Below are positions 6,778 to 14,422 of a stretch of 15,613 bases of DNA, piece after piece. Where the stretch lies: NCBI GenBank assembly GCA_001871075.1, contig MNUP01000005.1:1-15613 (forward strand), given 5' to 3'. Position 1 is the stretch's first letter; the number at the start of each line of letters is the position of its first letter. Source of the stretch: Candidatus Desantisbacteria bacterium CG1_02_49_89 (GTDB lineage: Bacteria; Desantisbacteria; UBA1551). The position numbers and the translations under genes are program-made. The notes under the pieces were generated by a model that had not been told where the DNA came from, searched no databases, and saw only the letters and a list, made by a program, of their open reading frames with translations.

Positions 6778-6831
6778 GGATTGGACAAGAAACATTTTTA
6801 AAAACAGGTGATTGAAAGGACGGATAAAAGA

Positions 6832-7347
6832 ATGAAAGCAATTGTTCCGCAGGAAGAAGTTATCGAAAGAAAGATTTTTTTAATACGTGGGCACAGGGTT
6901 ATGCTTGATAAAGATTTAGCAGGGCTTTATCGGGTTACAACGGGTAATTTAAATAAGGCTGTAAGCAGGAATATAGAACGTTTCCCCGAAGGGTTCATGT
7001 TCCATCTAACCAAAAAAGAGTTTAGAAACTTGATATTCCAAAATGGAATATCAAGTTGGGGTGGGACTCGTAAGATGCCCTATGTTTTTACGGAACAGGG
7101 TGTAGCCATGCTTTCAAGCGTGCTAAAAAGCAAAAGGGCGATACAGGTTAACATTGCCATTATACAGGTATTCGTAAAATTGCGGCAAATCCTTTCCACC
7201 CACGTCAAGCTTGCTTATAAACTGAAGGAGCTTGAAAGAAAGATAGAAAAACACGATGAAGAAATAACGACAATTTTTGAGGCGATACGCCGGATGATAG
7301 CCGCGGAAGAAAAACCGAAGGAAAAGATAGGTTTTAAAGTAGACTGA
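6832..7347 (+). CDS. ORF6N-domain DNA-binding protein
   Basis: The product has 171 residues from ATG 6832. The frame also allows a GTG start at 6808, but no ribosome site precedes that, while GAAAGGA (6814-6820) lies 11 bases before the ATG. The ORF6N domain covers most of the protein: IFLIRGHRVMLDKDLAGLYRV, NKAVSRNIERFPEGFMFHLT, SSWGGTRKMPYVFTEQGVAMLSSVL and a final RAIQVNIAIIQVFVKLRQIL. A coiled-coil-like tail (KLKELERKIEKHDEEIT) follows. ORF6N and the related KilA-N domains are phage-derived DNA-binding modules common in accessory bacterial DNA; the target and role are not known here. The coding DNA for NLIFQNGISSW is a perfect inverted repeat (separate entry). The stop is TGA, with TAA two codons later. 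It looks like a single-gene unit between a hairpin and an unrelated membrane-protein gene. Confidence 0.9.
   Translation: MKAIVPQEEVIERKIFLIRGHRVMLDKDLAGLYRVTTGNLNKAVSRNIERFPEGFMFHLTKKEFRNLIFQNGISSWGGTRKMPYVFTEQGVAMLSSVLKSKRAIQVNIAIIQVFVKLRQILSTHVKLAYKLKELERKIEKHDEEITTIFEAIRRMIAAEEKPKEKIGFKVD
7027..7057. repeat. perfect 14-bp inverted repeat inside the ORF6N gene
   Basis: Arms AACTTGATATTCCA (7027-7040) and TGGAATATCAAGTT (7044-7057) are exact reverse complements around AAA. The repeat sits in frame and encodes NLIFQNGISSW, immediately before the conserved GGTRK..FTEQGVAM part of the domain. It shares a 21-bp framework with two palindromes at the DUF1016 gene. Confidence 0.9.
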
Positions 7348-7460: not shown

Positions 7461-7946
7461 ATGGAAGAGAAGGGGTGGTTCGGGTTAACGTGGAGGGCCC
7501 TGCTGATAGGGTCGGCGTGCGTTATTTTCTTAAGCATCGCCGCGCCTTTCGCAGACCTGGTTCTGGTTGGCACGTGGATAGCGGGAGCGCACCTTCCGAT
7601 AGGCGCGCTTTTCGTGTTCCTGGTAATGGTAGTGGGCATAAACCCGCTGTTAAAGGTAATGAAGGTAGGCCTGAGCAAGTCAGAACTCCTGCTTGTTTAC
7701 TGCATGATGCTTGTCGGGGCCGGGATACCCGTGACAGGGTTCACCGAATACCTGATCCCGACAATAGCGTCCCACCAGTATTACGGCACACCTGCGAACA
7801 AATGGATCACCACGTTTTCCGCCAACATACCATCCTGGCTGACGCTCAGCGACAAGGAAGCCATAAGGCAGCTTTACGAGGGGCTTCCTAACGGCGCCTC
7901 CCTGAACTTTATCCAGCTTATGAAGGCTATACCGTGGGGCGTGTGA
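7461..7946 (+). CDS. DUF6785-type OPT-like membrane protein, N-terminal part up to an in-frame TGA
   Basis: This part has 161 residues and begins MEEKGWFGLTWRALLIGS. It contains hydrophobic segments at about 10-35 and 45-65 and the family-like stretches PFADLVLVGTWIAGAHLPIGA, LSKSELLLVYCMMLVGAGIPVTGF and LYEGLPNG. The family (DUF6785/DUF6784, large polytopic proteins related to oligopeptide transporters) is usually about 600-700 residues long. Here the frame is cut by TGA at 7944-7946, directly after IPWGV, and continues in the same frame as VKPLFYW to 9446. Counted through, the gene would have 661 codons before TAA. It was therefore one gene, now split by a nonsense change, a sequencing error or a read-through codon. 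It is GC-richer than the genes upstream. The substrate is unknown; the neighbouring exported hydrolase and lectin suggest uptake of sugars or their breakdown products. Confidence 0.8.
   Translation: MEEKGWFGLTWRALLIGSACVIFLSIAAPFADLVLVGTWIAGAHLPIGALFVFLVMVVGINPLLKVMKVGLSKSELLLVYCMMLVGAGIPVTGFTEYLIPTIASHQYYGTPANKWITTFSANIPSWLTLSDKEAIRQLYEGLPNGASLNFIQLMKAIPWGV
7944..7946 (+). other. in-frame TGA at an expected Trp codon of the transporter gene
   Basis: The context is PWG-V-TGA-V-KPLFYW. Members of this family, as remembered, read PWGxW(L/V)KPL at this point, so one G-to-A change of TGG explains the stop. The same frame is open for 500 codons after it, with no frameshift. Confidence 0.8.
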
Positions 7947-7985
7947 GTCAAGCCGCTCTTCTACTGGACGCTTTTCGCCCTGGGT

Positions 7986-9446
7986 ATGTACCTTACCATG
8001 TTCTGCGTGGGCGTCATACTGAGAAAGCAGTGGGTTGAGAACGAAAAGCTTGTTTTCCCCCTTGTGCAGCTTCCGCTTGAAATGGTCAGCACAGAGGAAG
8101 GGAAACTGCCGGGGTTCATACCCGCTTTCTTCAAGAACAAGATAATGTGGCTGGGTTTTATCATCCCTGCCGCCATACACACCATCAACGGCCTCCACTA
8201 CTACTTCCCGTTCATCCCGCAGATCAACCTTTTTTTCGACATGACAAAATATTTTTCTGCCAAGCCCTGGAACGCGATAAACCCGCTGTGGATCATCATA
8301 CACTTCAGCGTAATAGGGTTTGTTTACCTGCTTCCGGTGGAACTGTCGTTCAGCCTTTTCTTTTTCTACTGGATCTTCCACTTGCAGGCTGTCATAGGCA
8401 ACATGATGGGTTTCCCCCTGCCTTACACTCAGGGTTACACTGCGCCGATCCGCGCGTTCGCGGCTTACCAGATGACAGGAGCCCTCCTTGTCTTTACCAT
8501 TTTCGGGTTCTGGTCTATGAGGGGGCTGCTGAAGGATATGTGGCGCAGGGCGTTCCAGGGCGCGAAGGACGTGGATGATTCCAACGAACCTGTTTCATAC
8601 AGGACAGCGTTCCTGGGCGCGCTTATCGGGCTGCTGGGGTGCTCGATATGGGCGGCTTTTGCCGGGATGAACTTCCTGTTCTTTCTGGTTGCGATAATCC
8701 TGTTCTTCCTCACGTTTATAGGGATGACAAGGCTCGTTTCAGAGGGAGGAATGCTTTTCATCTCGATACCCACGCGTCCCTCCAGTTTTTTCTACGCTTT
8801 TGCGGGAAGCGCGGTTTTCGGGCCTGTGAACCTGACAATGCTTTCACTCGTCGAATACGTGCTGATGTTCGACATACGCTCAAGCCTTATGCCAAGCATC
8901 ATGGACACCTTCAAGATCTCCGACGGCGCGAAGCTGAAGAGAAGGCACCTGACAATAGGGATCGTCGTGGCAGTGCTGCTTTCACTCGTTGTTTCATACT
9001 GGGCGGTGCTTACGTTCCTTTACAAGGCAGGCGGCGTTAACTGCCAGCAGTGGTTCACTGTGGGGCTTCCGAAGTATTACCTCAGCCGCGTGGATGAGCT
9101 CATATACAGGCCGCAGAAGGCAAGCGGCAACTACATCATGTCAATGGGTGTGGGGGCCGCGGTAATGGGTTTCCTTTTCTTCATGAGGCGGTCGTTCCTG
9201 TGGTGGCCGTTCCACCCGATAGGGTACGCAATGGGCTGCACCTGGCCCATGCTTCAGCTGTGGTTCTCTATCATGATCGGCTGGGCGGTGAAGTCCATTA
9301 TAATGAAGCTGGGAGGATTGAAGATCTACAAGAAGCTTCTGCCCGCGTTCCTGGGCCTGGTGCTGGGCGAGTTCACGACCGCCGCTGTATGGGTTATCGT
9401 GGATATGTGCACCGGCATCAAGGGCCACCGCATCTTCTTATTCTAA
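7986..9446 (+). CDS. DUF6785/DUF6784-type OPT-like membrane protein, C-terminal part after the in-frame TGA
   Basis: This part has 486 residues from the first ATG after the TGA; the coding frame really continues from 7947. It opens with MYLTMFCVGVILRKQWVENE and KLVFPLVQLPLEM, the characteristic cytoplasmic segment of the family. About ten further hydrophobic segments follow, with loops rich in aromatic residues (INGLHYYFPFIPQI, QGYTAPIRAFAAYQMTGALL). The mid-domain motif RLVSEGGMLFI and the C-terminal IMIGWAVKSIIMKLGGLKIYKKLLPAFLGLVLGEF resemble the OPT-like C-terminal core. It ends at TAA. No ribosome site precedes ATG 7986, so independent translation looks weak; the fragment is better seen as the rest of the upstream gene. 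Without the N-terminal helices it would probably not transport. Confidence 0.8.
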   Translation: MYLTMFCVGVILRKQWVENEKLVFPLVQLPLEMVSTEEGKLPGFIPAFFKNKIMWLGFIIPAAIHTINGLHYYFPFIPQINLFFDMTKYFSAKPWNAINPLWIIIHFSVIGFVYLLPVELSFSLFFFYWIFHLQAVIGNMMGFPLPYTQGYTAPIRAFAAYQMTGALLVFTIFGFWSMRGLLKDMWRRAFQGAKDVDDSNEPVSYRTAFLGALIGLLGCSIWAAFAGMNFLFFLVAIILFFLTFIGMTRLVSEGGMLFISIPTRPSSFFYAFAGSAVFGPVNLTMLSLVEYVLMFDIRSSLMPSIMDTFKISDGAKLKRRHLTIGIVVAVLLSLVVSYWAVLTFLYKAGGVNCQQWFTVGLPKYYLSRVDELIYRPQKASGNYIMSMGVGAAVMGFLFFMRRSFLWWPFHPIGYAMGCTWPMLQLWFSIMIGWAVKSIIMKLGGLKIYKKLLPAFLGLVLGEFTTAAVWVIVDMCTGIKGHRIFLF

Positions 9447-12316: not shown

Positions 12317-12595
12317 ATGGCTGAAGCAACTATCACTTCAAAAGGTCAGGTAACTATACCGAAATCCGTAAGGGACGCGCTTAATTTAAAATCAAAAGAC
12401 AAAATTGTCTTTGTGCCGCTTGGCGACCACGCGGTAATGCGCCCGCTGAAAGGGAATGTCCTTGACTTAAGGGGCTCTGTGAAACATAAGGGCGGACCCA
12501 TAGATTTCAGGAAACTGCGCGCTGATATGGAAAGCGAGATCGCAAAAGACGCGGTGAATGAAATGGGGAATAAGTATGCGCCTCGTAGACGCTAA
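12317..12595 (+). CDS. vapB: AbrB/MazE-family antitoxin (VapB-like)
   Basis: The product has 92 residues. Residues 4-44 (ATITSKGQVTIPKSVRDALNL, KDKIVFVPLGDHAVMRPL) are a typical SpoVT/AbrB swapped-hairpin DNA-binding domain. Residues 45-92 form a charged tail expected to bind the toxin. AAGGAG (12305-12310) lies 6 bases before the ATG. The PIN-toxin gene begins inside the last 20 bases of this gene, in another frame, which suggests translational coupling. The known role of the family is to neutralise the partner PIN ribonuclease and to repress the shared operon. The consensus promoter and direct repeats upstream fit that. Confidence 0.92.
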   Translation: MAEATITSKGQVTIPKSVRDALNLKSKDKIVFVPLGDHAVMRPLKGNVLDLRGSVKHKGGPIDFRKLRADMESEIAKDAVNEMGNKYAPRRR

Positions 12596-12977
12596 CGTTA
12601 TTTTGCGGCTTATTCTTGAAGACGACAGAAAGAAAGCCGATGATTGCGAGCGCCTGCTGCAAAGAGCCGTTGACGGCAAAGAGAAACTTTTTATTTCCGA
12701 TTTTGTCATTGCCGAGATAGTATGGGTGCTTGAAAGGACTTACAGGCTTGCCAGGAAAGACATAAGGCCCAAGATTGAAGGTATCTGTAATACGCCGAAC
12801 CTTGTTTTCCAGAACAAACATATTCTGCAGGAAGCGATAAGCATATATGAAGAAGCGAACATAGACTTCATTGACGCCTTCCATTCTGCCTGGATAAAAC
12901 ACAATGGTATGGAAGGAGTTTTCTCATACGACGAACATTTTGATAAAGTCCCGGGTATTGGCAGGAAAGAACCGTAA
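12576..12977 (+). CDS. vapC: PIN-domain ribonuclease toxin (VapC-like)
   Basis: The product has 133 residues from ATG 12576, preceded by GGGGA with good spacing. An in-frame ATG at 12558 would add MKWGIS and break the usual PIN start. The acidic metal-binding residues of the PIN fold are visible: Asp5 (LVDANVILR), Glu47 (FVIAEIVWVLE), Asp100 (NIDFIDAFHSA) and Asp119/Asp123 (FSYDEHFDKVPGI). VapC toxins cut RNA, often tRNA or rRNA; the target here is unknown. All key residues are present, so it looks active. It is the second gene of the pair, overlapping the antitoxin. A block of dispersed repeats starts right after its stop. Confidence 0.93.
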   Translation: MRLVDANVILRLILEDDRKKADDCERLLQRAVDGKEKLFISDFVIAEIVWVLERTYRLARKDIRPKIEGICNTPNLVFQNKHILQEAISIYEEANIDFIDAFHSAWIKHNGMEGVFSYDEHFDKVPGIGRKEP

Positions 12978-13318: not shown

Positions 13319-13326
13319 TGGTTTAA

Positions 13327-13353
13327 TTGGATGTCACAATTTGTGACATCCAA
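13327..13353. repeat. perfect 13-bp palindrome upstream of the DUF1016 gene
   Basis: TTGGATGTCACAA (13327-13339) and TTGTGACATCCAA (13341-13353) are exact reverse complements around a single T. It lies 55 bases before the ATG. It is a possible operator or nuclease/ORF6N target and matches the palindrome inside the gene at 13706. Confidence 0.9.
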
Positions 13354-13408
13354 ATAGTATCTTGTTTTACGATGCATTGCGAAATTAAATTGATGAGGAA
13401 AGTAAAAG

Positions 13409-14422
13409 ATGGGAAAAACATTAGACACAGATAAAGGATATAACAAATTTATCAATGAAATAATAGCCGAGATAAAACGCTCCCGTCATAAAGCATATCA
13501 AATAATCAACAAACAGACGGTTGATGTGTATTTATTTATCGGCAGGAATATCTATGAGAAAGTTGAAATTGCTAAATGGGGTGAGGGGACCGTTGAGAGA
13601 TTATCAAATGATTTACAAAAGGCATTTCCTGATATGAAAGGATTTTCAAAAGAAAATTTATGGAGGATGAAGAAGCTTTTTGAGACTTACAAAGATTGTC
13701 CAAAACTGTCACCACTGGTGACAGAATTAAGCTGGTCTCATAATTTGACAATCTTATTTCAAACAAAGAGCATAGAAGAAAGAGAATTTTACCTTAAGAC
13801 TTGTGTCAATGAAAAATGGAGCAGAAGAGAATTAGAGAGACAGATTGATTCATCCCTTTATGAACGTTTTATATTGTCAAAGAAGACAGTCGGTTTGATA
13901 TTAAAGACAGGAGAGATTCAACCTGAATCGCAATTTAAAGATGATTATATGCTTGATTTTCTTGGGTTGAAAAATAAATTTTCAGAAAAAGACTTCAGGG
14001 CAGCAATCATCCAGAATCTAAAACAATTTTTTCTTGAGTTTGGTAAATATTTTTCTTTTGTAGGCGAAGAATATACTTTAACTGTCGGAAATGAAGATTA
14101 CAAAATTGATTTATTGTTCTATCACAGATTTTTGCAATGTTTAGTTGCTGTTGAATTGAAGATAGGCAAATTTAAGCCAGAATATGTTGGCAAAATGCAG
14201 TTTTATCTGACTGCCCTTGACGAAAAAATTAGGCTTAATAATGAAAACCCATCGGTTGGGTTAATCCTCTGCAAATCAAAAGATGAAGAAGTAGTGAGGA
14301 TAGCTATGGGTAAGGCGATGGCACCAGTGAAGGTTGCCACTTATAAAACAAAAATTATAGATAAGAAGTTATTACAGCAGAAATTACATTCTTTGCCTTT
14401 CCCAAAAGAGAATAAGGATTGA
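13409..14422 (+). CDS. DUF1016/YhcG-family PD-(D/E)XK nuclease
   Basis: The product has 337 residues; GAGGA lies 9 bases before the ATG. The N-terminal DUF1016_N domain (about 10-155) contains LFIGRNIYE, WGEGTVERLSNDLQKAFPDMKGFSKENLWRMKKLFETY, LSWSHNLTIL and EEREFYLKTCVNEKWSRRELERQID. The C-terminal nuclease domain (about 175-335) shows LDFLGL, then D234 in YKIDLLFYHR, E249-x-K251 in AVELKIGKF, and the YVGKMQFYLTALDEKIR segment. These match the PD-(D/E)XK core, so it looks active. The family is abundant in accessory and defence-type DNA, sometimes beside restriction-modification genes; its natural role is unsettled. No partner gene is adjacent. It is visibly more AT-rich than the transporter and hydrolase genes, consistent with transfer. 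A 9-bp palindrome lies in its coding sequence and a related one upstream. It ends TGA directly followed by TAA. Confidence 0.92.
   Translation: MGKTLDTDKGYNKFINEIIAEIKRSRHKAYQIINKQTVDVYLFIGRNIYEKVEIAKWGEGTVERLSNDLQKAFPDMKGFSKENLWRMKKLFETYKDCPKLSPLVTELSWSHNLTILFQTKSIEEREFYLKTCVNEKWSRRELERQIDSSLYERFILSKKTVGLILKTGEIQPESQFKDDYMLDFLGLKNKFSEKDFRAAIIQNLKQFFLEFGKYFSFVGEEYTLTVGNEDYKIDLLFYHRFLQCLVAVELKIGKFKPEYVGKMQFYLTALDEKIRLNNENPSVGLILCKSKDEEVVRIAMGKAMAPVKVATYKTKIIDKKLLQQKLHSLPFPKENKD
13706..13724. repeat. perfect 9-bp palindrome inside the DUF1016 gene
   Basis: CTGTCACCA (13706-13714) and TGGTGACAG (13716-13724) are exact reverse complements around one C. It is in frame and encodes LSPLVTE, just before the conserved LSWSH motif. 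The core has the same layout as the upstream palindrome, differing by one pair that changes in both arms. Confidence 0.85.

Follow-up and report, generated by a model that had tools for sequence, protein, structure and literature searches.

Why would a gene for an ORF6N-domain protein carry a long, exact DNA palindrome written into its own reading frame? The question is raised by a 15,613-nucleotide stretch (the window) at the start of contig MNUP01000005.1 of Candidatus Desantisbacteria bacterium CG1_02_49_89. ORF6N proteins, like those of the RhuM, Bro-N and YhcG families, are common in bacteria, phages and plasmids, and are mostly without known target or function. The comparative analysis described below makes it highly probable that the gene's own dimeric protein recognizes the palindrome as its target in double-stranded DNA, most likely for autoregulation.

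The window gene and its palindrome

The ORF6N-domain gene (6832..7347, forward strand) encodes a protein of 171 amino acids; an in-frame GTG at 6808 is a possible alternative to the main ATG start at 6832. The protein matches Pfam PF10543 with an E-value of 2.1e-34 and 118.1 bits (curated cut-off 27.8) over positions 2-86 of the 86-position domain. The original prediction had described two exact 14-base arms around AAA at 7027-7057, in the ORF6N frame, and its coordinates are exact: bases 7027-7040 (AACTTGATATTCCA) are the perfect reverse complement of bases 7044-7057 (TGGAATATCAAGTT), the spacer is AAA, and the arms allow no extension beyond 14 bases. This element, AACTTGATATTCCA-AAA-TGGAATATCAAGTT, is the longest perfect short-spaced palindrome of the window and constitutes one inverted repeat, without tandem copies inside the gene. 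Its frame reads NLIFQNGISS(W), residues 66-75 of the protein; the palindrome is centred 210 nt past the ATG, on the first base of the codon that follows CAA.

The AlphaFold2 model of the protein (pLDDT 82.5) exhibits two helices, at residues 26-33 and 37-46, the latter being the putative recognition helix (codons 6940..6969, forward strand). The palindrome encodes the end of a further helix (61-71) and a low-confidence loop, a segment that, according to the model, is a permissive place in the protein. Alignment column entropies broadly agree with the earlier view of this stretch as variable and of its flanks as conserved. A sequence search found no solved structure of an ORF6N relative; the nearest solved folds are the DNA-binding winged-helix/HTH domains of Dachshund/SKI, MerR, RacA and ParA, with weak similarity (Z 4-6.5, Foldseek E of at least 0.1).

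An intrinsic terminator or a known structured RNA was ruled out as the identity of the palindrome: no T-run follows on its 3' side (the next bases are GGGGTGGG) and an Rfam search of the window returned no match. A search of the 2.48-Mb assembly with up to 3 mismatches found no second copy except one control-level match. This discards a wider regulon for the window paralogue, and the main target of the protein would therefore be its own gene. Elsewhere in the window, a DUF6785/DUF6784 protein is split over two ORFs (7461-9446; ORFs 7461-7946 and 7986-9446) and is either frameshifted or a pseudogene, while the overlapping AbrB/MazE-type antitoxin and PIN-domain toxin genes at 12317-12977 form an ordinary toxin-antitoxin pair.

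Recurrence of the palindrome in ORF6N genes

The same genome harbors five more full ORF6N genes, two of which possess perfect 15-bp palindromes at the equivalent spot, with different arms (AATTGGAGGTCACAA-n-TTGTGACCTCCAATT and AACTTGAAATCACAA-n-TTGTGATTTCAAGTT). The comparison was extended to a non-redundant set of 213 ORF6N genes, drawn from IMG/VR and from many phyla, pairing being scored at 11 positions (k=2-12) around one centre. At least nine of the 11 positions are paired in 206 of the 213 genes, as compared to 16 of 213 after synonymous codon shuffling. Perfect arms of at least 12 bases occur in 46% of these genes, in 0.16% of the synonymous-codon shuffles and, among 400 other ORFs taken from these loci, in 2.8%. 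Codon usage is thus ruled out as the cause of the palindrome, and the original claim that coding alone does not require it is borne out, as synonymous shuffling destroys it. Changes in one arm are compensated in the other far above the codon-usage expectation, and the homologues do not show the opposite pattern, namely the same residues encoded without a palindrome and with no excess of compensation.

A search for the 17-mer GGTCACAANTTGTGACC in 192 genomes from across the domain found it at 23 sites in 17 of them, the reversed control giving 0. By coordinate comparison with ORF6N matches, 18 of the 23 sites lie inside ORF6N genes; the remaining ones include one in an ORF6N remnant and one located 68 nt upstream of an ORF6N match. 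In IMG/VR phages (L139-L166), this 17-mer is also found between phage genes with no ORF6N nearby, often 15-35 nt past a stop codon and sometimes followed by T-runs, in a terminator-like arrangement. Two palindrome-coding units stand in tandem at the site of the ORF6N genes of L037, L045, L091 and L109. On two Segatella copri plasmids (L549 and L550; 4,140 and 2,955 bp), the annotation lists two genes only, ORF6N and a replication initiator. The control genomes of Caulobacter vibrioides and Lactococcus lactis likewise contain members of the ORF6N family.

Palindrome bases and recognition-helix residues

Covariation was analyzed in an alignment of 161 ORF6N genes, equivalent to an effective number of about 134. 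For the triplet at -6..-4 from the centre, corrected mutual information peaks at helix column 29 (1.03), exceeding the values for the residue that the triplet encodes (0.85) and for column 26 (0.75); for the triplet at -9..-7, helix column 25 (0.52) comes second to the encoded residue (0.88). The pairing between residue 29 and the triplet -6..-4 has almost no exceptions: Gln goes with TCA (61 genes), Glu with TCG (34), Lys with TTC (30) and Arg with TGC (18). Residue 26 is Arg in all 34 Glu29-TCG genes and Asn in 25 of the 35 TTC genes, and Lys25 goes with G at -7 in at least 76 of 79 genes. Gln-A, Glu-C and Lys/Arg-G are well-known amino acid-base preferences, and the pairings observed for residues 29 and 25 match them, on one strand or the other. 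The covarying residues fall in helix 37-46 of the AlphaFold2 model, where columns 25, 26 and 29 correspond to G38, N39 and K42 of the window protein. From Gly25/Asn26/Lys29, the predicted core is ATA-TTC, which is the core observed in the window.

As the sequences of the covariation sets are related, sister pairs and cluster hold-outs were used to address relatedness. Nearest neighbours with identical cores never differ at residue 29 (0% of 38 pairs), whereas those with different cores nearly always do (95% of 42 pairs). When clusters above 60% identity are left out together, the core is correctly predicted in 91% of cases from residues 26 and 29, as compared to 34% from the relative that is closest over the remainder of the domain. 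With residue 29 as the sole predictor, accuracy for the core dinucleotide reaches 94% across held-out clusters, the best of 90 columns, while the median column pair achieves 35% in the same cross-cluster test. A later set of 21 ORF6N genes from 19 plasmid records was fetched after the rule had been read: all 21 possess a palindrome of at least 8/11 at the site, and the core predicted from residue 29 is present on at least one arm in 21 of 21, with 12 core calls made by script and nine by reading printed helices.

Could these correlations arise within the protein, by coupling between helix and loop residues, with the palindrome as a by-product of codon choice? Q29 and V59 do covary at the protein level. 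This explanation is nevertheless scarcely credible, since even the synonymous serine codon follows residue 29 (TCA with Gln29, TCG with Glu29; Fisher p about 1e-26) and the palindrome is lost on synonymous shuffling. Moreover, in an ORF6N subfamily the palindrome is read in another frame, with its centre on the second codon base, and encodes a different peptide (VTNCDH or VANCDH) with the base rule unchanged (Gln-TCA 11, Glu-TCG 4, Arg-TGC 1, and three partial or atypical cases).

The perfect stems of 12-16 bp and the small loops are also those expected of an mRNA hairpin, such as a regulatory RNA or an RNase III site. In near-perfect ORF6N palindromes, however, G.T mismatches, tolerated in RNA, are as common as A.C mismatches, which are not (61 vs 61); therefore, pairing in the sense RNA is not what is selected. 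Nor does RNA pairing require the bases to follow the recognition helix, and with the lack of a T-run and of an Rfam match noted above, a hairpin function is very unlikely. At position 4, three Watson-Crick pairs alternate (A-T 63, C-G 57 and G-C 34), and position 5 likewise alternates.

The sequence statistics thus establish that the palindrome exists, that changes in its arms are compensated and that its bases match the recognition helix. The original prediction had offered a self-recognition site for the protein as one of two options; it now receives strong support, as the compensated bases track the gene's own recognition helix. From this we infer binding and dimerisation, and the palindrome in each ORF6N gene is in all probability recognized by the encoded protein.

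For the outer bases (k10-12), the covarying residues lie about 7-14 positions past the centre in ORF6N (G65/R67), RhuM (E67/R70) and Bro-N (R59/A53); these residues could belong to a wing reading the outer arms. Within one genome, paralogues share the hexamer in 0 of 57 pairs, as compared to 4.8% between genomes (p 0.058), a difference too weak to establish orthogonality.

RhuM, Bro-N and YhcG/DUF1016 genes

Genes of the RhuM (PF13310), Bro-N (PF02498) and YhcG/DUF1016 families also contain an in-gene palindrome, just C-terminal to the helix-turn-helix. Perfect arms of at least 12 bases are found in 29%, 19% and 32% of them, respectively, and in none of the shuffles. The centre falls on the first codon base in ORF6N and YhcG, on the second in Bro-N and on the third in RhuM; as it occupies different codon positions among families, and in the ORF6N subfamily, codon structure is not the cause of the palindrome. 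The window itself provides a YhcG example: the gene at 13409..14422 (forward strand; Pfam PF17761 and PF06250), which encodes a PDDEXK nuclease domain, harbors the palindrome CTGTCACCA-C-TGGTGACAG at 13706..13724, in the codons just past helix 81-94 of its AlphaFold2 model. This position is likewise palindromic throughout the family.

In RhuM, positions 3-5 covary with helix residues 38 and 41, and positions 7-8 with 36 and 40. In Bro-N, the partners are residues 30 and 34 for positions 2-5, 29 for positions 6-7 and 25 for positions 8-9, while in YhcG they are 76 for position 7, 80 for positions 5-6 and 79 for position 8. The general order is the same in ORF6N, RhuM, Bro-N and YhcG, inner bases corresponding to C-terminal helix residues and outer bases to N-terminal ones. 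At 60% identity, cross-cluster prediction exceeds that from the nearest relative in all four families, with modest sample sizes for Bro-N and YhcG: it is weaker in YhcG, and the Bro-N statistics comprise only 34 genes and fail once no more than three clusters remain. Most relatives in the four families thus appear to carry their predicted target in their own coding sequence, and gene, protein and target appear to move and evolve as a unit. KilA-N and pRha are phage and mobile-element DNA-binding domains discussed together with ORF6N and Bro-N; despite this likeness they differ in lacking the feature, with no in-gene palindrome above background in the 10 KilA-N and 6 pRha genes scored.

Several YhcG genes (L260, L257, L246, L272 and L455) often exhibit two or three different palindromes in a row in the loop that follows the HTH, encoding for example ISHTVCAKL, SHTVCAEL and ISQTVSGIS and resembling a small site array. 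In the window's own genome, a 13-bp perfect palindrome, AGAAAATTCGGAATTTCCGAATTTTCT (L001, about 1877; contig C14), is located downstream of neighbouring RhuM and ORF6N genes and resembles the alternate-frame RhuM palindrome of L343 (RKFGNSEFS).

The second option of the original prediction, a DNA element carried inside the gene, finds no support in the form of a mobile insert. Two or three adjoining palindromes in L037, L091, L109 and L260, and the existence of stand-alone copies, are features that a selfish palindromic insert in the reading frame would display. Position and reading phase are, however, fixed in each family, the units measure just 25-33 nt, and their sequences vary from gene to gene, with the variable bases set by the recognition helix of the host protein. 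Among 1,854 other ORFs, only 25 scattered palindromes of comparable length were found, with no common sequence, and a selfish origin is most improbable. The model for such an insert would be the Rickettsia palindromic elements, selfish sequences of 100-150 nt in protein genes (PMC4316617). The two have in common palindromic DNA translated within a protein, and they differ in that the present units are far shorter, family-specific, position-fixed and helix-matched. The window palindrome itself, with its 31 nt and no second genome copy beyond the control level, was ruled out as a Rickettsia palindromic element.

Stand-alone and upstream palindromes

A stand-alone palindrome of ORF6N type, of the Gln29/Lys25 class, is located at 13324..13356 of the window, with a perfect core at 13327-13353 (TTGGATGTCACAATTTGTGACATCCAA); the YhcG start follows about 69 nt downstream. 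No ORF6N relic was detected around it, and judging by its bases it may be a candidate trans site for a Gln29/Lys25 ORF6N paralogue such as that on contig C130. More ORF6N-type palindromes are found in the same genome (L011, about 1509, C111:19388; L009, about 1509, C11:2757): one is about 30-40 nt upstream of a Bro-N gene, and the other is intergenic and may be an ORF6N relic (frame LRSQIVTLEK).

In three ORF6N loci (L163, L034 and L124), the in-gene site is imperfect or decayed and a perfect cognate palindrome lies upstream of the start. Such cognate sites are found 20-130 nt upstream of start codons. The association between a decayed in-gene site and an upstream cognate site reaches borderline significance (Fisher p 0.054), several of the upstream palindromes belong to a non-cognate type, and the upstream sites of L034 partly look like duplicated ORF6N fragments. 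The sequences of these three loci are suggestive only of an operator relocated upstream after decay of the in-gene copy.

Proposed mechanism and purpose of the site

In the proposed mechanism, the ORF6N protein would bind as a winged-helix dimer, placing its two recognition helices in adjacent major grooves about 11 bp apart and reading the bases at distance 4-8 from the palindrome centre. The site would lie about 200 nt into the coding sequence, in the loosely constrained codons that follow the helix-turn-helix, and could therefore follow changes in the recognition helix. The bound protein would most likely repress its own transcription, RNA polymerase being blocked and elongation stopped about 200 nt in. 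Being inside the gene, the operator would also accompany it in horizontal transfer. This arrangement would be shared by RhuM, Bro-N and YhcG genes. For the role of the in-gene site, we lean towards autorepression. Autoregulated winged-helix/HTH repressors of prokaryotes are dimeric, bind palindromic sites with half-sites about one turn apart, and display covariation between site and helix. Their operators are normally located in the promoter; the present sites are about 200-300 nt inside the sequence coding for the DNA-binding domain, and autorepression alone leaves this location unexplained.

Self-recognition might instead serve another purpose, such as homing, allele exchange, replication or keeping out a second copy, with the site as a mark on the gene. 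The PDDEXK nuclease domain of YhcG and its frequent rows of palindromes point in this direction, as do the occurrence of ORF6N on very small plasmids and beside integrases and the fact that the window site stands alone in its genome, which leaves the paralogue without a regulon. On the other hand, a Pfam search found no nuclease domain in the window ORF6N protein, we know of none in RhuM or Bro-N, and the presence of cognate sites 20-130 nt upstream of starts fits operators. A purpose other than autorepression is thus rather unlikely. A broader proposal, which we put forward tentatively, is that of a 'self-addressed' gene class: families of mobile DNA-binding proteins would keep their own site in the codons of the DNA-binding domain, where it would serve self-targeting (homing, copy exclusion, mobilisation) as well as autoregulation. 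Because the site lies inside these codons, recombination or transfer would move specificity and target together. Self-targeting may apply above all to the nuclease-bearing YhcG.

Replication has a known parallel, and the nearest precedent for a DNA-binding protein with sites inside its own coding sequence: in phage lambda, the O gene contains the replication origin, which comprises four 19-bp repeats and an AT-rich region and binds O (PMC4488673). The present genes differ from it in usually having one palindrome directly past the recognition helix, in belonging to four protein families, and in obeying a base-by-residue rule. An origin of the lambda O type was ruled out for the window palindrome, which is a single inverted repeat instead of several direct-repeat iterons with an AT-rich region.

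Significance

The open-access literature searched yielded no description of in-gene targets for ORF6N, RhuM, Bro-N or YhcG. One stretch of DNA would here be under two codes, a peptide and a predicted binding site, that co-evolve. Should the palindrome prove to be the target, one could read the DNA specificity of each such protein from its own gene. This would provide a natural recognition code drawn from hundreds of protein-DNA pairs and a direct test of the function of these widespread proteins.
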